Source: Macrococcus epidermidis
GTDB lineage: Bacteria > Bacillota > Bacilli > Staphylococcales > Staphylococcaceae
Direction of reading: 5' to 3'
Length of the DNA: 64,000 bases
Assembly (NCBI RefSeq): GCF_003259695.1
Contig: NZ_PZJH01000002.1
Span: forward strand, 1-64,000
The stretch's first letter is position 1. Each line of letters begins with the position of its first letter. The translations under genes were made by a program, and so were the position numbers. The notes under the pieces were generated by a model. The model had not been told where the DNA came from, ran no database searches, and was given only the letters and a program-made list of their open reading frames with translations. Of this stretch, positions 5,716 through 51,963 are shown in pieces.

Positions 5716-6393
5716 TTATTTATCCATATGTTGTAAAGCGTATTGAGCTTCTTCTTGCGTGAACTTACTTCCTGCTTCGGATGTTAGTTGTTGCAGTAAT
5801 TCTTGATCAGACATTGGTAATGTTTCATTATAACTATTTGCAGCTTCTACAGCTTCCTCTTTAAAATCTGCTTCTACATTATCAATTGCGTATTGAGCTG
5901 CTTCTGGTGGAAAAGCATTACCTGCATCGGAAGTTAACTGATCATATAATCCAGCTTTTGAAAATGGCATTATATCTATATAGTTTTGAGCAGCAGCTAA
6001 TGCCGCAACGTGTTCTCTAGTTATATTAGTATCATCTTTTGTAGATATTTTTTCTGAATTTGAATCTTTAGCTGTAATTTCTTCAGTAGTTATATCTTCT
6101 TCAACTGTCATATCTTCTTCGTTAGCTCCATCTTCCTCAAAAGCAGTATCTTCATCAGCAGTTGTATCATCACTTTCAGTAGTGTCATCCTCTGAAGGAA
6201 CAATATCCTCTACTACTTCTTTATCTTCTTCGGTGAGTTCATTACTAGTAGGCAAAAATATAGCAGAACAAGCGCCAATTAAAAACATCAATAAAACTAA
6301 TCCTAAACAACCGAATAAAAATGGATTTTTTTTCTTTTTAAAAACAACCGGATTTCCTTGTGCATCATAATAAACTTCCTCTTTTTTTGCCAT
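5716..6393 (-). CDS. Ltp-family superinfection-exclusion lipoprotein
   Basis: The 225-residue product has a charged N-terminus, a hydrophobic segment (about 25-46) containing the lipobox IGAC (Cys42), a long acidic Thr/Glu/Asp linker (50-125), and two tandem repeats (about 129-175 and 180-224) with the LTSxAGxxFxxExAQYAxxxM pattern of host cell surface-exposed lipoprotein domains (PF07553). The Ltp protein of phage TP-J34 has this plan and blocks DNA injection by related phages. The anchored, linker-spaced layout fits that role on the outer face of the membrane. Position beside int and repressor, with a terminator after it, suits expression during lysogeny. AAAGGGG precedes ATG 6393. Confidence 0.85.
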   Translation of the reverse strand: MAKKEEVYYDAQGNPVVFKKKKNPFLFGCLGLVLLMFLIGACSAIFLPTSNELTEEDKEVVEDIVPSEDDTTESDDTTADEDTAFEEDGANEEDMTVEEDITTEEITAKDSNSEKISTKDDTNITREHVAALAAAQNYIDIMPFSKAGLYDQLTSDAGNAFPPEAAQYAIDNVEADFKEEAVEAANSYNETLPMSDQELLQQLTSEAGSKFTQEEAQYALQHMDK

Positions 6394-7774: not shown

Positions 7775-7975
7775 TTGCCTAGAGGAGATTGGACAATTGA
7801 TGCAAAGGAAATCCAGGAACGCCTTTGTATAAGCAAAGATTTCTTTTATGAAAAAATAGCAAATGATCCTCGAATGAAAGCCATTGAGATTTCAAAATCT
7901 AAACGGAAGTCTTGGTGGCTTACTAAAGAGGCTGAAAAAATATGTATAGCAATTATGAAAGAATATGGTTTTTAA
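7775..7975 (+). CDS. Small phage DNA-binding protein (DUF771-like)
   Basis: The 66-residue product has a predicted helix-turn-helix (EIQERLCISKDFFYEKI, about 12-28) followed by a basic segment and a Trp-Trp pair. This resembles DUF771 or excisionase-like proteins of early phage regions. TTG 7775 is served by GGAGGTG at 7762-7768. The gene follows operator 2 and may take part in the lysis-lysogeny switch. An excisionase role is a guess. Confidence 0.65.
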   Translation: MPRGDWTIDAKEIQERLCISKDFFYEKIANDPRMKAIEISKSKRKSWWLTKEAEKICIAIMKEYGF

Positions 7976-7977
7976 GA

Positions 7978-7992
7978 CGGGAGACTTGGAAG
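7978..7992. repeat. Copy B of the prophage 14-mer
   Basis: CGGGAGACTTGGAAG matches copies near int (4408-4422) and just inside attR (52071-52085, inverted). Here it lies between the stop of the DUF771-like gene and the next ribosome site. Confidence 0.6.
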
Positions 7993-8017
7993 CAATATTT
8001 AAAAAGGAGAATGAACA

Positions 8018-8224
8018 ATGAGATTAATTATAACGATTATTGTAGGAATAGTAATTACATTATCGTCACTATCATTTGCGTTAATATATTCATCTTTTAC
8101 ACAAATGGATGAAGGAAGCACAACATTTTTAGCATGTATCGTTGCTGGTATCAGTAACTTAAGTTTGTATGCAAATTACGAGGTGGGAAAGAAACGTGCT
8201 AAAAGAAATCATCAAATTAATTAA
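8018..8224 (+). CDS. Small membrane protein (68 aa)
   Basis: Two hydrophobic segments (about 2-26 and 36-54) are followed by a basic tail (KKRAKRNHQ), predicting both termini on the cytoplasmic side. AAAAGGAG precedes ATG 8018 by nine bases. Located in the early region, it is of unknown function. Candidates are exclusion protein or early membrane factor, without direct evidence. Confidence 0.65.
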   Translation: MRLIITIIVGIVITLSSLSFALIYSSFTQMDEGSTTFLACIVAGISNLSLYANYEVGKKRAKRNHQIN

Positions 8225-8384
8225 GCCTGAGAAGAAACTACAGAAAGATGTATTTGACTGGTATGAGAAAGGCATTTGGATGGCAGAGGTCATTAAATGT
8301 AAATCAAATAACAAGTTGATCTATGTTGATTCTTATTTTTGTGAAGAAACAGATAAGTTTTATATCGAGTATTACATCAAATAA
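8196..8384 (+). CDS. Phage protein of unknown function (62 aa)
   Basis: It starts at GTG 8196, eight bases after AGGTGGG, and overlaps the preceding membrane-protein gene by 29 bases. The product is a basic-then-acidic soluble protein containing VFDWYEKGIWMAE. The overlap suggests coupled translation. No family recognised. Confidence 0.5.
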   Translation: MLKEIIKLIKPEKKLQKDVFDWYEKGIWMAEVIKCKSNNKLIYVDSYFCEETDKFYIEYYIK

Positions 8385-8413
8385 AAAGCCGCATCTATAG
8401 AAATAGAAGCGGC
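8383..8413 (-). terminator. Leftward terminator for the 8611-8871 gene
   Basis: GCCGC/GCGGC and TCTAT/ATAGA form a stem with one A-A mismatch around AGAA (8388-8413). The T tract lies on the minus strand, so it serves the leftward gene at 8611-8871. Confidence 0.7.
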
Positions 8414-8438
8414 ATGAGCGAATTAAAAATATTTGATA
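8412..8438 (+). repeat. 27-bp direct repeat, left copy
   Basis: These 27 bases match 8930-8956 exactly, covering the first 8 codons of the antirepressor gene and 2 bases before it. The pair brackets a cassette with one rightward and one leftward small gene. Confidence 0.9.
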
Positions 8439-8479
8439 CATATATTGTATCACGAAGGGCGGTGAAAATAAATGATTAA
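8414..8479 (+). pseudogene. Truncated 5' end of an antirepressor gene
   Basis: The frame reads MSELKIFD, identical to the intact antirepressor at 8932, then diverges (TYIVSRR) and stops after 21 codons. It looks like the stub left when a cassette entered at the antirepressor start. It has no good ribosome site because its upstream bases form the leftward terminator. Confidence 0.6.
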
Positions 8480-8633
8480 ATATCTAAAAATAGCCCTCTT
8501 AATCTACCTCTTGGCGGAAGAGATTAAGAGAGCTGCTAAAGAAAATGAAATAGTCAACAAAATTTCAGTAGATCAATCTTTTGTCGAAAAGTTAATTAAA
8601 TCAGATAGATTTAATTTGTATCAGCTTGATTAG
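8472..8633 (+). CDS. Small phage protein (53 aa)
   Basis: The frame begins MIKYLKIALLIYLL, a short hydrophobic N-terminal segment, followed by a charged helical region (AEEIKRAAKENEIVNK). GGCGGTGA precedes ATG 8472. It is convergent with the gene at 8611-8871 and overlaps it by 23 bases. It may be a small single-pass membrane protein. No family recognised. Confidence 0.45.
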   Translation: MIKYLKIALLIYLLAEEIKRAAKENEIVNKISVDQSFVEKLIKSDRFNLYQLD

Positions 8634-8871
8634 TAAGTTTTTCAAGTATTTGCAAAGCTGAATAAGCTGCAGTTTCATTAGTTGTTTTTGCAGACACTAA
8701 AGTTAAATGTAAAAAGAATTGTTTTTGCTCTTTGCTTAGATTTAATGACTTAGCAACTTCAGAATTAATTAATACATCAAAATTTTCTTCAATTTCCTTA
8801 ATAGCCATTTTGAAGTTTTTGTCTGTAATTTCTTTGAATAACTTTTGAAACTGTGAGTCTGACATTTTCAT
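8611..8871 (-). CDS. Leftward small protein in a cassette (86 aa)
   Basis: This gene runs against the early operon, has its own terminator (8383-8413) and a strong site AAAGGTGGTG before ATG 8871. The product is helical and charged (MSDSQFQKLFKEITDK, then LNLSKEQKQFFLHLTL). With the 27-bp repeats around it, it behaves like a moron expressed in the lysogen. Function unknown; prophage genes of this kind often act in immunity or exclusion. Confidence 0.65.
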   Translation of the reverse strand: MKMSDSQFQKLFKEITDKNFKMAIKEIEENFDVLINSEVAKSLNLSKEQKQFFLHLTLVSAKTTNETAAYSALQILEKLTNQADTN

Positions 8872-8929
8872 ATTATTCACCACCTTTCTTAATAAGATTA
8901 AGAAAATTATAACAAATAAAGGAGCGATA

Positions 8930-8956
8930 GCATGAGCGAATTAAAAATATTTGATA
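8930..8956 (+). repeat. 27-bp direct repeat, right copy
   Basis: Exact second copy of 8412-8438; here it forms the start of the intact antirepressor gene. Confidence 0.9.
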
Positions 8957-9642
8957 ATGAACAATTCGGATCATTACAAGTTTTAGAGAAAGATGGAAAA
9001 GTATTTTTCCCAGCAACAGATGTAGCACTTAAATTAGGATATTCAAATCCACGTGATGCCATCAAACGTCACGTAAAAGAACATGGGGTCGTGTTTCACG
9101 ACGTCATCGATACATTAGGCAGAAAACAAGAAAAGAAGTATATCAGTGAAGGTAATTTATATAGATTGATCAGCAATTCAAAATTAGAATCAGCTAATCA
9201 ATTTGAAGAATGGGTTTTTGACGATGTGCTTCCTACACTGAGAAGGACAGGTGTCTATCAGACAAAACCATTAACAACACAGGAACAAATTCAACTAATT
9301 GCACAAGGTAACAATGAATTAGTTGAACGTGTTGAAGCAATAGAAACATCAATACCAGTCTTTCCAGGTGAATCAAAACATATTCATCAAACAATTAAAC
9401 GTAAAGCTACTGAAGTAATGAAAAACCAATTTAATGGCATACCTATCAGCAAGATAAGTAGAAAGGTATATTCAGCCCTTTACAGAAGTCTTTATACAGC
9501 ATTTAGCGTACCAAACTATCAAAGTATACCACGTGGCAAATATAAAGATGCTATCAGATTTATTGAAACATGGCAGTTACAGAGTGAAGTTGTTTATCAA
9601 ATTGAAGCTGATCTAAGAGGTGACGCATATGCCAATCGTTAA
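8932..9642 (+). CDS. ant: Phage antirepressor, BRO-N plus ORF6C domains
   Basis: The 236-residue product has an N-terminal BRO-N/Ant domain (about 5-105; FFPATDVALKLGYSNPRDA, then ISEGNLYRLI and FEEWVFDDVLPTLRRTG) and a C-terminal ORF6C-type domain (about 125-233; KISRKVYSALYRSLYTAFSV). Such proteins counteract repressors or act as early regulators. AAAGGAGCGATAGC precedes ATG 8932. It begins the block that leads into replication genes and overlaps the next gene by 14 bases. Confidence 0.9.
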   Translation: MSELKIFDNEQFGSLQVLEKDGKVFFPATDVALKLGYSNPRDAIKRHVKEHGVVFHDVIDTLGRKQEKKYISEGNLYRLISNSKLESANQFEEWVFDDVLPTLRRTGVYQTKPLTTQEQIQLIAQGNNELVERVEAIETSIPVFPGESKHIHQTIKRKATEVMKNQFNGIPISKISRKVYSALYRSLYTAFSVPNYQSIPRGKYKDAIRFIETWQLQSEVVYQIEADLRGDAYANR

Positions 9643-48550: not shown

Positions 48551-48585
48551 GACACCTCATTATGAGGTGTCTAATTTAATTTTAG
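48551..48585 (+). terminator. Terminator after the tail fibre gene
   Basis: GACACCTC and GAGGTGTC form a strong stem around ATTAT, followed by an interrupted T tract (TAATTTAATTTT). It separates the structural operon from the moron unit. Confidence 0.7.
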
Positions 48586-48598
48586 AACACACATTCTC

Positions 48599-48627
48599 TT
48601 ATCATATTCTTTTGGATAGAGTATATT
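48599..48627 (+). promoter_or_regulatory. Predicted promoter of the Ntn-hydrolase unit
   Basis: TTATCA (48599-48604) and TATATT (48622-48627) are spaced by 17 bases and lie 21 bases before ATG 48648. With the terminator upstream, this would give independent transcription. Confidence 0.5.
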
Positions 48628-48647: not shown

Positions 48648-49844
48648 ATGACATCAGAAATTTGTATAATGAATAGTTTAGGTGCAGTATTAGCTGCTGA
48701 TAGTGCAGTTACAATCAGTGGAAGTGGATCTGCAAAAACATATGATACAGTAAATAAAATATTCAGTATGGATAAACACGACATAGGAATTATGATAAAT
48801 GGCAATCTTACATTTAATAAACTTTCATTAGATATTGTTATTAAAGAATTTAAAAAACAATTACCTGAAGAGAAGTATAATACCGTTAATATTTATGCCT
48901 CTAAATTTTTGGAGTTTCTTAATACGTTTAAAGAATCAAAAACTAGCACTGCTGAAATAGAACTTATTAATCTATATATATATAATCTGATAAATGAAGT
49001 GAATAGAAGATCAGAACTGATGATTAATGAAGTTTTGTCAACAGAATCAACAGTACAAGTTGACTCCGTTCAAAAAATTATTACACGTAATATTAATGAT
49101 GTTTATCAGATATTAGACCAACACTTCGACTCTATATTAACTTTTGACGATAATTATTTTGAAATTAATTATAATAAATTAGTAGAAGAAAGAATTTGGG
49201 AACATTTTGCACCAGCGTATATTACTGATGAAATAATCACACTTTTTATAACCTTAGTTAAAAAAGCACTTCAGACAAATTATGAAGTTTTAAGTAAAAG
49301 TTCTATTGTTTTTGCTGGATACGGAAAAGAGGATGTACTACCATCGATGATTGAGTTAGAACTATATGGTAGTTTTAATGGAGTGATAAAACATCGTTTT
49401 AATTATTCATCAAGTATTAGTATTAGAGAAAATTTCTTAGCTGATATTAAACCTTTCGCCCAAGATGATATGATTGAAACTGTTATAAAAGGGATACATC
49501 CAGAAGTAAATCAGAATATGATAAATTGTATAAATGGATCAAGCATACCTGAACAAGAAAAGATTAATATAATAAATGAAATTGATGGATTTCAAAAGAC
49601 GCAATTTGTACATCCGTTTTTACAAACTATCGTTAATCTTCCATTAGAAGAATTACCTTCAATGGCTGAAACGCTAATTAATCTAACCTCTTTCAAAAGA
49701 AAGTATTCGCAAAATATTGAAACAGTTGGTGGTCCGGTAGATATTTTGATGGTTTCAAAAGGGGAAGGCCCAATATGGATAAAAAGGAAACATTATTTTA
49801 AAAGTGAATTAAATTTAGAATATTTAAATAGAAAGGGTGTTTAA
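48648..49844 (+). CDS. Proteasome/HslV-like Ntn hydrolase encoded in the prophage
   Basis: The 398-residue product starts MTSEICIMNSLGAVLAADSA. Removing Met exposes Thr1; Asp then falls at 17 in LAADSAVT, exactly as in HslV and proteasome beta subunits, and Lys36 in VNKIF sits where Lys33 is expected (three residues later). An IGIMINGN segment follows, like the G-x-x-G strand after this site in HslV. The C-terminal 300 residues are helical and unlike HslV. I infer a self-contained Ntn-fold amidase or peptidase. AAAAGGGGATGG precedes ATG 48648; an upstream in-frame extension to 48549 lies in the terminator and is rejected. Position between fibre and holin marks it as a moron. Confidence 0.8.
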   Translation: MTSEICIMNSLGAVLAADSAVTISGSGSAKTYDTVNKIFSMDKHDIGIMINGNLTFNKLSLDIVIKEFKKQLPEEKYNTVNIYASKFLEFLNTFKESKTSTAEIELINLYIYNLINEVNRRSELMINEVLSTESTVQVDSVQKIITRNINDVYQILDQHFDSILTFDDNYFEINYNKLVEERIWEHFAPAYITDEIITLFITLVKKALQTNYEVLSKSSIVFAGYGKEDVLPSMIELELYGSFNGVIKHRFNYSSSISIRENFLADIKPFAQDDMIETVIKGIHPEVNQNMINCINGSSIPEQEKINIINEIDGFQKTQFVHPFLQTIVNLPLEELPSMAETLINLTSFKRKYSQNIETVGGPVDILMVSKGEGPIWIKRKHYFKSELNLEYLNRKGV

Positions 49845-49846
49845 TA

Positions 49847-50020
49847 ATGTTTAAAATTTCTAATAATCAACGTAGTTCATTCGATTTTGTAGTTAATAAA
49901 GGATTTAATATTAAAACCCCATTAATAGAAAAGTTAACTGAACAAAAGGATAGAGAAAAATACTTAGAAGAACGTAAACAATTCATCAGAGAAATAATCG
50001 TACAACAACAGAATCAATAA
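49847..50020 (+). CDS. Small companion protein of the Ntn hydrolase (57 aa)
   Basis: The frame begins MFKISNNQRSSFDFVVNKGF and ends in a charged helix (DREKYLEERKQFIREIIV). It starts two bases after the Ntn-hydrolase stop and shares its transcription unit, which ends at the terminator 50040-50066. GAAAGGGTG lies upstream. It could be a substrate, adaptor or inhibitor of the hydrolase; none is shown by sequence. Confidence 0.62.
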   Translation: MFKISNNQRSSFDFVVNKGFNIKTPLIEKLTEQKDREKYLEERKQFIREIIVQQQNQ

Positions 50021-50039
50021 ATAGCTAAATAATATCCAA

Positions 50040-50066
50040 CCTCTCACATAACGTGAGGGGTTTTTA
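50040..50066 (+). terminator. Terminator after the Ntn-hydrolase unit
   Basis: CCTCTCAC and GTGAGGGG form an 8-bp stem around ATAAC and are followed by TTTTT. Confidence 0.88.
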
Positions 50067-50099: not shown

Positions 50100-50648
50100 A
50101 TGCATATAGAAGCAGACGGTATAAGTTTTGAACACTTATCGATATTAAAATTTTATTTATTAGGCACAGATTTAAGGATGGTTTACATTCTATTAGCGTT
50201 TATGAGTTTCGATATTATGACAGGAATTTTTAAAGCGTGGCAACAGCATAATTTATGGAGTAGGAAATCTATGTTTGGTTATTCAAGAAAACTATTAATT
50301 TTCGGAATAGTTATTATGGCTAATCTAATGGATCAAATACTTGAGTTAAACGGAGTATTGTCGATTGCGACGATTCTTTACTATATAGGAAATGAAGGAT
50401 TAAGTATAGTGGAGAACCTTGTGATATTAGGAGTGCCAGTTCCTGAATTTCTAGCAGAAAAATTAGCAATATTAGCTAATGGTAAACGTTCAATAACTAC
50501 TGACATTAAAGAAGAGTTTAGCACTAAAAATTCACCTGATTTACCTGGAGGTGAAGTGGAAGTAAAAGTTAAGGTTGAGCCGGAAGAAATAAAAGCAATG
50601 AACTCTAAATATGGGATGGAGATGTATTCAAATGACAAAAAAGGCTAA
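50100..50648 (+). CDS. Phage holin, toxin-secretion/lysis family
   Basis: The 182-residue product has hydrophobic segments at about 28-45, 65-85 and 95-120 and the family phrase FDIMTGIFKAWQQHNLWSRKSMFGYSRK (PF05105-like). Its C-terminus is a long charged tail. Holins form membrane lesions that release the endolysin, encoded next with a 17-base overlap. GGAGTGATGG precedes ATG 50100. Confidence 0.9.
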   Translation: MHIEADGISFEHLSILKFYLLGTDLRMVYILLAFMSFDIMTGIFKAWQQHNLWSRKSMFGYSRKLLIFGIVIMANLMDQILELNGVLSIATILYYIGNEGLSIVENLVILGVPVPEFLAEKLAILANGKRSITTDIKEEFSTKNSPDLPGGEVEVKVKVEPEEIKAMNSKYGMEMYSNDKKG

Positions 50649-51963
50649 AATGAAATATAAAATTGAAACTCAGCATGTCAAAGGATTACCACAGTATAGA
50701 TACAACACAAAGAATGGTAAACCTGATTGCATCGTAATGCATGATACTGGAAACGATTCAAGTACCATTGAAGGTGAAGTAAGTTATATGTCGCGTAACT
50801 GGAAAAATGCGTTTGTGCATGGTTGGATTAATGCTGATAAAATAATTGAAACTGCTAATACTGATTTCTTGTGCTGGGGTGGAGGGCCAGGTATCAATCC
50901 TTACGCGATACAAGGTGAGTTAGTACATGAGCATACCAAAGAAAGATTTTTATTATCCATCGATCGATGGATATTTTATTTTGCTTATCAGATGTATTGG
51001 TATGATATTGAAGTATATGATGCTACAGATGATGGTAATGGAACAGTATTTACACATCACGCAGTATCTAAATTCCGTGGCCATACTGATCATGTTGACC
51101 CAATGCCTTATATAAAAGAACGTTCTAAAAAGTTATTAGGAAAAGAAATAACCTGGTCACAGATTTATAACAAACTAAAAGAATATGTTGATGCATTATA
51201 TGATGGAGATAGTACTAAAGTTAAAATGATTGGTGAAGCGTCTGATAGTAAAGTTGTTAAAAAAGCTCCAAAGAAAACACCAGTTAAAAAGAAAGTTACC
51301 ACAAAACCTAAAAAAGTTGAAGATATCTATATTGTCAAAGAAGGAGATAGCTTATGGAAAATAGCAACGGAATACAAACTGACTATAGATGAATTAAAAA
51401 AGCTAAATGGGTTAAAATCGAATTTAATATTCGAAAAACAAAAATTAAAAATAAAGAAAGAAAAAAAGGCGCAATCTACTATCAAGCAGAAAGCGCCTTT
51501 AAAAATAAACAACCCTAAAAATAAATTAACCAAATCGCAAGCAGTTCAATTCGTTAAATTGCTAGAAGGTAATATTTATGACTACGATAAATATGCAGGT
51601 GCGCAATGTTTTGATTTAGCAAATGTGTATTGGCATGCAATGTACCAACATAAATTAGATGGTATTGCTGCAAAAGATATTCCAACCGCTAACGATTTTA
51701 CAGGTGAAGCGGTTATATACAATAACACGCCAGAATTTTTAGCGATGCCTGGGGATTTATGTATTTGGTCAAAACGTTTCGGTATTGATAAATATGGAAA
51801 AGGTTGGGGACATGTAGCAATCGTATTAGAAGCTGATTTAAATACTATTACGGTGTTAGAACAAAATTGGCTTGGTGGTGGTTGGACTATGACAGAACCA
51901 GCGACGATAAGAAATCATAAATATGAATATGATATGAAATTCATAAGACCACTTTATAGATAG
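50632..51963 (+). CDS. Endolysin: amidase - LysM - CHAP
   Basis: The 443-residue product has an N-terminal Amidase_2/PGRP domain (about 25-170; His37 in MHDTG, His151/His154 in GHTDHVDP), a basic Lys/Pro linker (205-230), one LysM domain (232-275) and a C-terminal CHAP domain (about 305-443; Cys326, His394, Asn412). It therefore predicts N-acetylmuramoyl-L-alanine amidase and endopeptidase cuts. In most staphylococcal endolysins the CHAP is N-terminal and the binding domain SH3b is C-terminal, so this order is reversed. Its LysM shares LKKLNGLKSNLI with the tape-measure LysM domains. Confidence 0.95.
   Translation: MTKKAKMKYKIETQHVKGLPQYRYNTKNGKPDCIVMHDTGNDSSTIEGEVSYMSRNWKNAFVHGWINADKIIETANTDFLCWGGGPGINPYAIQGELVHEHTKERFLLSIDRWIFYFAYQMYWYDIEVYDATDDGNGTVFTHHAVSKFRGHTDHVDPMPYIKERSKKLLGKEITWSQIYNKLKEYVDALYDGDSTKVKMIGEASDSKVVKKAPKKTPVKKKVTTKPKKVEDIYIVKEGDSLWKIATEYKLTIDELKKLNGLKSNLIFEKQKLKIKKEKKAQSTIKQKAPLKINNPKNKLTKSQAVQFVKLLEGNIYDYDKYAGAQCFDLANVYWHAMYQHKLDGIAAKDIPTANDFTGEAVIYNNTPEFLAMPGDLCIWSKRFGIDKYGKGWGHVAIVLEADLNTITVLEQNWLGGGWTMTEPATIRNHKYEYDMKFIRPLYR

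Follow-up and report, generated by a model that had tools for sequence, protein, structure and literature searches.

A proteasome-like Ntn hydrolase gene of a Macrococcus prophage and the small conserved gene that follows it

Twenty-two new proteasome-like families, some of them present in phages, were published by Fuchs, Alva and Lupas in 2021, and gene neighbourhoods suggested no function for any of the 22 (PMC8665760). One of these, the uncharacterised PMI-4 ('proteasome homolog with multiple insertions'), was reported from Proteobacteria, Firmicutes, Actinobacteria, Bacteroidetes, cyanobacteria, Euryarchaeota and phages, and the main text of the paper makes no mention of a small gene as partner (PMC8665760). 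Connectase cleaves KDPGA between Asp and Pro and becomes amide-linked through its N-terminus (PMC10154401). Here we describe an enzyme gene, from a family for which our literature searches found no functional study, within a window that comprises the whole 64,000-nucleotide stretch of Macrococcus epidermidis DNA analysed.

The window contains integrase, terminase, portal, major head and tape-measure genes, and by this gene content the element is identified as a prophage. The enzyme gene and a small gene behind it lie between a tail/receptor gene and, beyond the pair, genes for a holin and an endolysin; as the original prediction stated, no HslU adjoins the enzyme, its neighbours being the tail protein, the 57-aa ORF, the holin and the endolysin. 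Intrinsic terminators on the + strand bound the module upstream, after the tail gene (48551-48571), and downstream (50038-50062). A promoter-like site, TTATCA-17-TATATT (48599-48627, + strand), is weak (9 of 12), and such sites in the region barely exceed those in shuffles. The GC content of the pair is 0.28, compared with 0.32-0.39 around it, and among 108 genomes of the bacterial family the enzyme gene occurs in the window genome and is absent from the other 107. The pair is thus AT-rich, terminator-bracketed and sporadic, as expected of a moron. Carriage of the enzyme as a prophage moron, which had been proposed, is borne out by the flanking terminators, the low GC and the single occurrence in 108 genomes; the accompanying idea of a new kind of moron is not, since 22 such families were already published in 2021 and relatives are widespread. 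Searches found no phage record near-identical to the window locus, and Rfam returned no match in the module region. The same prophage encodes a member of a superinfection-exclusion lipoprotein family (5716-6393, - strand, phrog_4980), and the endolysin (50611-51963) has Amidase_2, LysM and CHAP domains.

The enzyme gene (48648-49844, + strand) encodes 398 aa from an M-T start. Its mechanical ORF is longer, from 48549; we place the start at ATG 48648 because more than 100 homologues begin with M-T-x-E and because AAAAGGGG lies directly upstream of this codon. Removal of the initiator Met is predicted to expose Thr1 (codon 48651-48653), the predicted nucleophile. The Met-less protein has all three residues named in the original prediction, Thr1, Asp17 (48699-48701, in register with Asp17 of HslV) and Lys36 (48756-48758, equivalent to Lys33), an assignment that hinged on their conservation among homologues. 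In an alignment of 99 homologues, the Asp and Lys (D18 and K37 with Met included) are invariant and T2 is present in at least 90%; 142 of 143 distinct homologues have Thr at this position, and the remaining one has Ser. The place of the oxyanion Gly47 is taken by Gly in the window protein and by Gly, Asn or other residues among homologues. Profile alignment with 13 HslV proteins covered only the N-terminal 25 residues of the enzyme, in the register T1-T1 and D17-D17, and the pairwise score against HslV (E 0.0006 over 25 columns) is weak if taken alone.

An AlphaFold model of the window enzyme, built from the 99-row alignment, reached a pLDDT of 93.5 and a pTM of 0.90. The best PDB matches of the model in Foldseek were 20S proteasome beta subunits and Anbu (best E 9.5e-6), and VIA-align superposed it on Thermoplasma proteasome beta with Z 17.7 over 185 residues at 3.2 A, spanning residues 2-385. 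These comparisons recover the alpha-beta-beta-alpha fold of proteasome beta that had been anticipated, and, together with the conserved T1/D17/K36 and the HslV register, they identify the modelled catalytic core as that of a proteasome-like Ntn hydrolase, hydrolysis itself being predicted. The C-terminal 300 or so residues had been described as unlike HslV; because the proteasome beta alignment spans residues 2-385, they are better read as the rest of the same fold with helical insertions. In the model, strands 21-24 and 29-32 lie near each other and are followed by helices (61-93), and the remaining strands of the fold (218-271 and 364-379) occur along with fold helices. From the modelled secondary structure, a first helical insertion of residues about 94-190 (48927-49217, + strand) is provisionally assigned to the H1/H2 'pore-loop' side, and a second of residues about 298-332 (49539-49643, + strand) appears to lie between H3 and H4.

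Sequence libraries placed the enzyme less readily. The proposed PF00227 search left the window enzyme below the curated cut-off, with no match even at E 1, and in the host genome it matched one other protein, HslV. No family in Pfam, NCBIfam or PADLOC was matched, a PDB sequence search returned noise only, and the PHROG match was phrog_5990, of unknown function.

A gene for a 57-aa protein (49847-50020, + strand) follows on the same strand, beginning 2 nt past the enzyme stop codon, and has a ribosome-binding site of its own, AGAAAGGGTG; the original prediction had overlooked this gene. Annotated phage and satellite records have a gene of 55-59 codons directly 3' of the enzyme gene. Defining a partner as a same-strand ORF of 45-85 aa that starts within -40 to +40 nt of the enzyme stop, we found one behind 134 of the 139 enzymes in a first set, compared with 157/771 (20%) of the other ORFs of at least 250 aa at the same loci, and behind 152 of 157 distinct enzyme genes in a larger set from bacteria, archaea and phages. 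The five exceptions comprise one locus with a 35-codon version (L038) and four without a clear partner; the version at E. coli locus L313 has 34 codons. Because the tiny gene almost always follows the enzyme gene, the enzyme is probably one component of a device with two parts, enzyme and regulator, and not a lone enzyme. In the listed annotation, the partner gene is missing from a Streptococcus satellite (L290), from E. coli L312 and L313, and from plasmids L284, L286 and L287, whose gene tables are incomplete.

The dN/dS ratios of the partner gene range from 0 to 0.48 and mostly from 0.07 to 0.3 (23 comparable pairs), which indicates that it is translated and under selection, by this measure purifying. 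Partner proteins are hydrophilic (median GRAVY -0.93, 34% charged residues), and in nearly all of them hydrophobic segments are absent. Divergent groups can be distinguished among them, and 57 of 128 are united by an iterative profile; what the groups appear to have in common is gene position and coding constraint. A search by length for natural fusions of enzyme and partner yielded none that was convincing, the enzymes of L288 and L157 having C-terminal extensions. That of Mesorhizobium L288 (8001-9437) is about 50 aa long at a locus where a separate small ORF is absent, a possible fusion. We attempted docking by modelling in AlphaFold a read-through fusion of enzyme and small protein (L178, with in-frame neighbours); the small part had a pLDDT of about 38-67, and docking is therefore without support.

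As our leading though still tentative explanation, we propose that a Thr protease and a dedicated small antitoxin-like regulator form a two-gene lysogenic-conversion (moron) module that aids the lysogen. We infer proteolytic activity, physical interaction, inhibitor polarity, a trigger and an anti-phage benefit, as follows. Met removal would expose Thr1 at the enzyme N-terminus, which with Asp17 and Lys36 would cleave peptide (or amide) bonds. The two helical insertions would probably gate substrate entry, replacing an unfoldase or ring partner. A small, charged and mostly disordered protein would be made next to the enzyme, from overlapping frames in about half of homologues, and would bind the enzyme and hold it in check in the manner of an antitoxin or inhibitor. 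A trigger, for example a competing phage, would then release the enzyme.

The polarity of this scheme draws on loci where the enzyme gene is damaged. At L139 (2943-3243; IMG/VR 2846511114_000001), which is from another phage, the enzyme gene is cleanly deleted and an identical 57-aa protein is kept along with a terminator, the junction joining 38 bp that match window 48581-48618 to sequence matching 49825 onward. The small gene is also intact behind a 5'-truncated enzyme at L307/L037 and behind a split enzyme at L300. These three cases, in which the small gene is kept and the enzyme lost, lean, few as they are, towards an inhibitor or immunity role for the small protein. The L139 deletion also takes out the -10-like hexamer, and the surviving small gene may therefore be silent; the enzyme gene is a seven-fold larger target for damage than the small gene, and searches for orphan small genes mostly recovered the full pair. 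That a small gene can, in a few cases, outlast an intact enzyme also speaks against its being a required cofactor, whether assembly chaperone, activator or substrate adaptor. Such a cofactor, on the unlikely side in our estimate and still a serious candidate, would account for a small gene beside nearly every enzyme gene, for coupled synthesis, which overlapping frames favour (72 of 152 partner genes have a start that overlaps the enzyme gene), and for the divergence of the small protein, faster than that of the enzyme in most pairs, which fits a binding partner or adaptor. The antitoxin or inhibitor polarity keeps a modest lead over the cofactor role and over that of a substrate.

A substrate role is raised by the motif content of the partners. 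Those united by the profile share F/Y-x-P followed by K/S/E, as well as a C-terminal helix-like stretch, and the motif [FY][FLNVYI]x0-2P occurs in 65 of 143 small proteins, compared with a mean of 14.6 in shuffles; the window partner has a loose version, FNIKTP. In about half of the small proteins, a conserved x-Pro-[K/S/E] motif lies in the part that is conserved best; this motif, and the precedent of connectase, a proteasome-like ligase with a single short recognition motif, would suit a dedicated substrate that the enzyme cleaves or joins to other proteins in connectase fashion. We consider this rather improbable: not all small proteins have the Pro motif, connectase differs from the window enzyme in having no H1-H2 and in the place of its insertion, and the small proteins lack the conserved Gly-Gly-Gln/Glu C-terminus of Pup.

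Relatives of the enzyme were found in 13 phage records, in IMG/VR, on plasmids and in 222 genomic stretches from bacteria and archaea, across Firmicutes, Bacteroidetes, Planctomycetes, Proteobacteria, cyanobacteria, Euryarchaeota and phages. In E. coli, 22 of 5426 genomes carry the gene. Two prophages of this species differ in setting, with the pair antisense between Q (the antiterminator) and the lysis genes in L312 and beside a repressor-like HTH gene in L313; in streptococcal satellite phages, it is at the distal, accessory end. The annotated start of the L313 enzyme (7787-9190) appears about 33 codons too early, masking the N-terminal Thr. At L050 and L051 (5896-6840) are distant relatives that share the N-terminal signature and are shorter, at about 280 aa counted from M-T. 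On Rhizobium/Mesorhizobium plasmids (L284, L287, L334 and L288), the enzyme is a few genes from a multiubiquitin-domain/ThiF cluster, and three of the four loci also have a ClpP-like gene. Ubiquitin-like tagging genes beside a proteasome homologue are worth attention, and their proximity may be coincidence, since three of the four loci represent one syntenic island.

When 108 chromosomal neighbours were scanned with PADLOC and Pfam, no defence family recurred, and these neighbours are ordinary genes. Many homologues lie in such ordinary chromosomal surroundings, and in flavobacteria (L097, L119, L121 and L127) the position of the enzyme gene is conserved. This would suit a protein quality-control or stress protease that travels on mobile elements, with the small gene as a minor regulator and no anti-phage role, a reading that we regard as unlikely because the gene is patchily present and is carried repeatedly by phages, satellites and plasmids. 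A wall-active amidase at lysis, one of the functions suggested originally and in keeping with the holin and endolysin genes that come directly after the pair in the window, is so improbable that we rejected it, because terminators separate the enzyme gene from the lysis genes, it is on the opposite strand to them in E. coli and Stenotrophomonas phages, no signal peptide for export is apparent, and the enzyme is also present in archaea.

The conserved micro-gene gives a first functional handle, a cognate partner, on what is apparently the largest of the 22 families. Were the two genes to encode a protease and an inhibitor of it, they would make up a proteasome-like toxin-antitoxin or immunity device; should the small protein prove to be a substrate, the enzyme could be a second connectase-type ligase. 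On a broader reading, possible but doubtful, the pair would represent a two-component system for proteolytic immunity (or protein ligation) that is widespread among phages, bacteria and archaea, in which a partner of about 60 aa would hold, or be acted on by, an enzyme that is unleashed on phage or host proteins at superinfection.

Among known systems, HslV has a beta-type fold with Thr1, Asp17 and a nearby Lys in register with the window enzyme, but is about 171-175 aa long and has HslU as partner, whereas the window enzyme has 398 aa and no adjoining unfoldase gene; the host has a separate HslV. Anbu shares the proteasome-like fold, matching the enzyme model at Z about 17, but has a C-terminal coiled-coil helix and lacks the insertions. 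The phage proteasome homolog PPH has about 140 residues and no H2. Connectase is likewise proteasome-like with one dedicated, Pro-containing substrate motif, but lacks H1-H2, has a two-helix insertion between S3 and S4 and is confined to methanogenic archaea. HslV, PPH and connectase were excluded as the identity of the enzyme on size or topology. The pair also resembles toxin-antitoxin systems in joining a large enzyme to an adjacent, co-oriented tiny gene with mobile and patchy occurrence, a likeness at the level of gene arrangement; the short protein encoded beside Sofic is an example of small-protein control of a toxic enzyme (PMC12249575). PMI-4 is closest, with its proteasome-beta core, Thr1/Asp17/Lys33 and no propeptide, a long pore-loop insertion and another between H3 and H4 as in our model, and a taxonomic spread across bacteria, Euryarchaeota and phages that matches our homologue set. 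Matched to the published description by architecture and distribution, the window enzyme likely belongs to PMI-4, a cluster with HDY66466.1 as its reference sequence. The enzyme is of a described, still uncharacterised kind, and the partner gene and the two-gene module are the new element.
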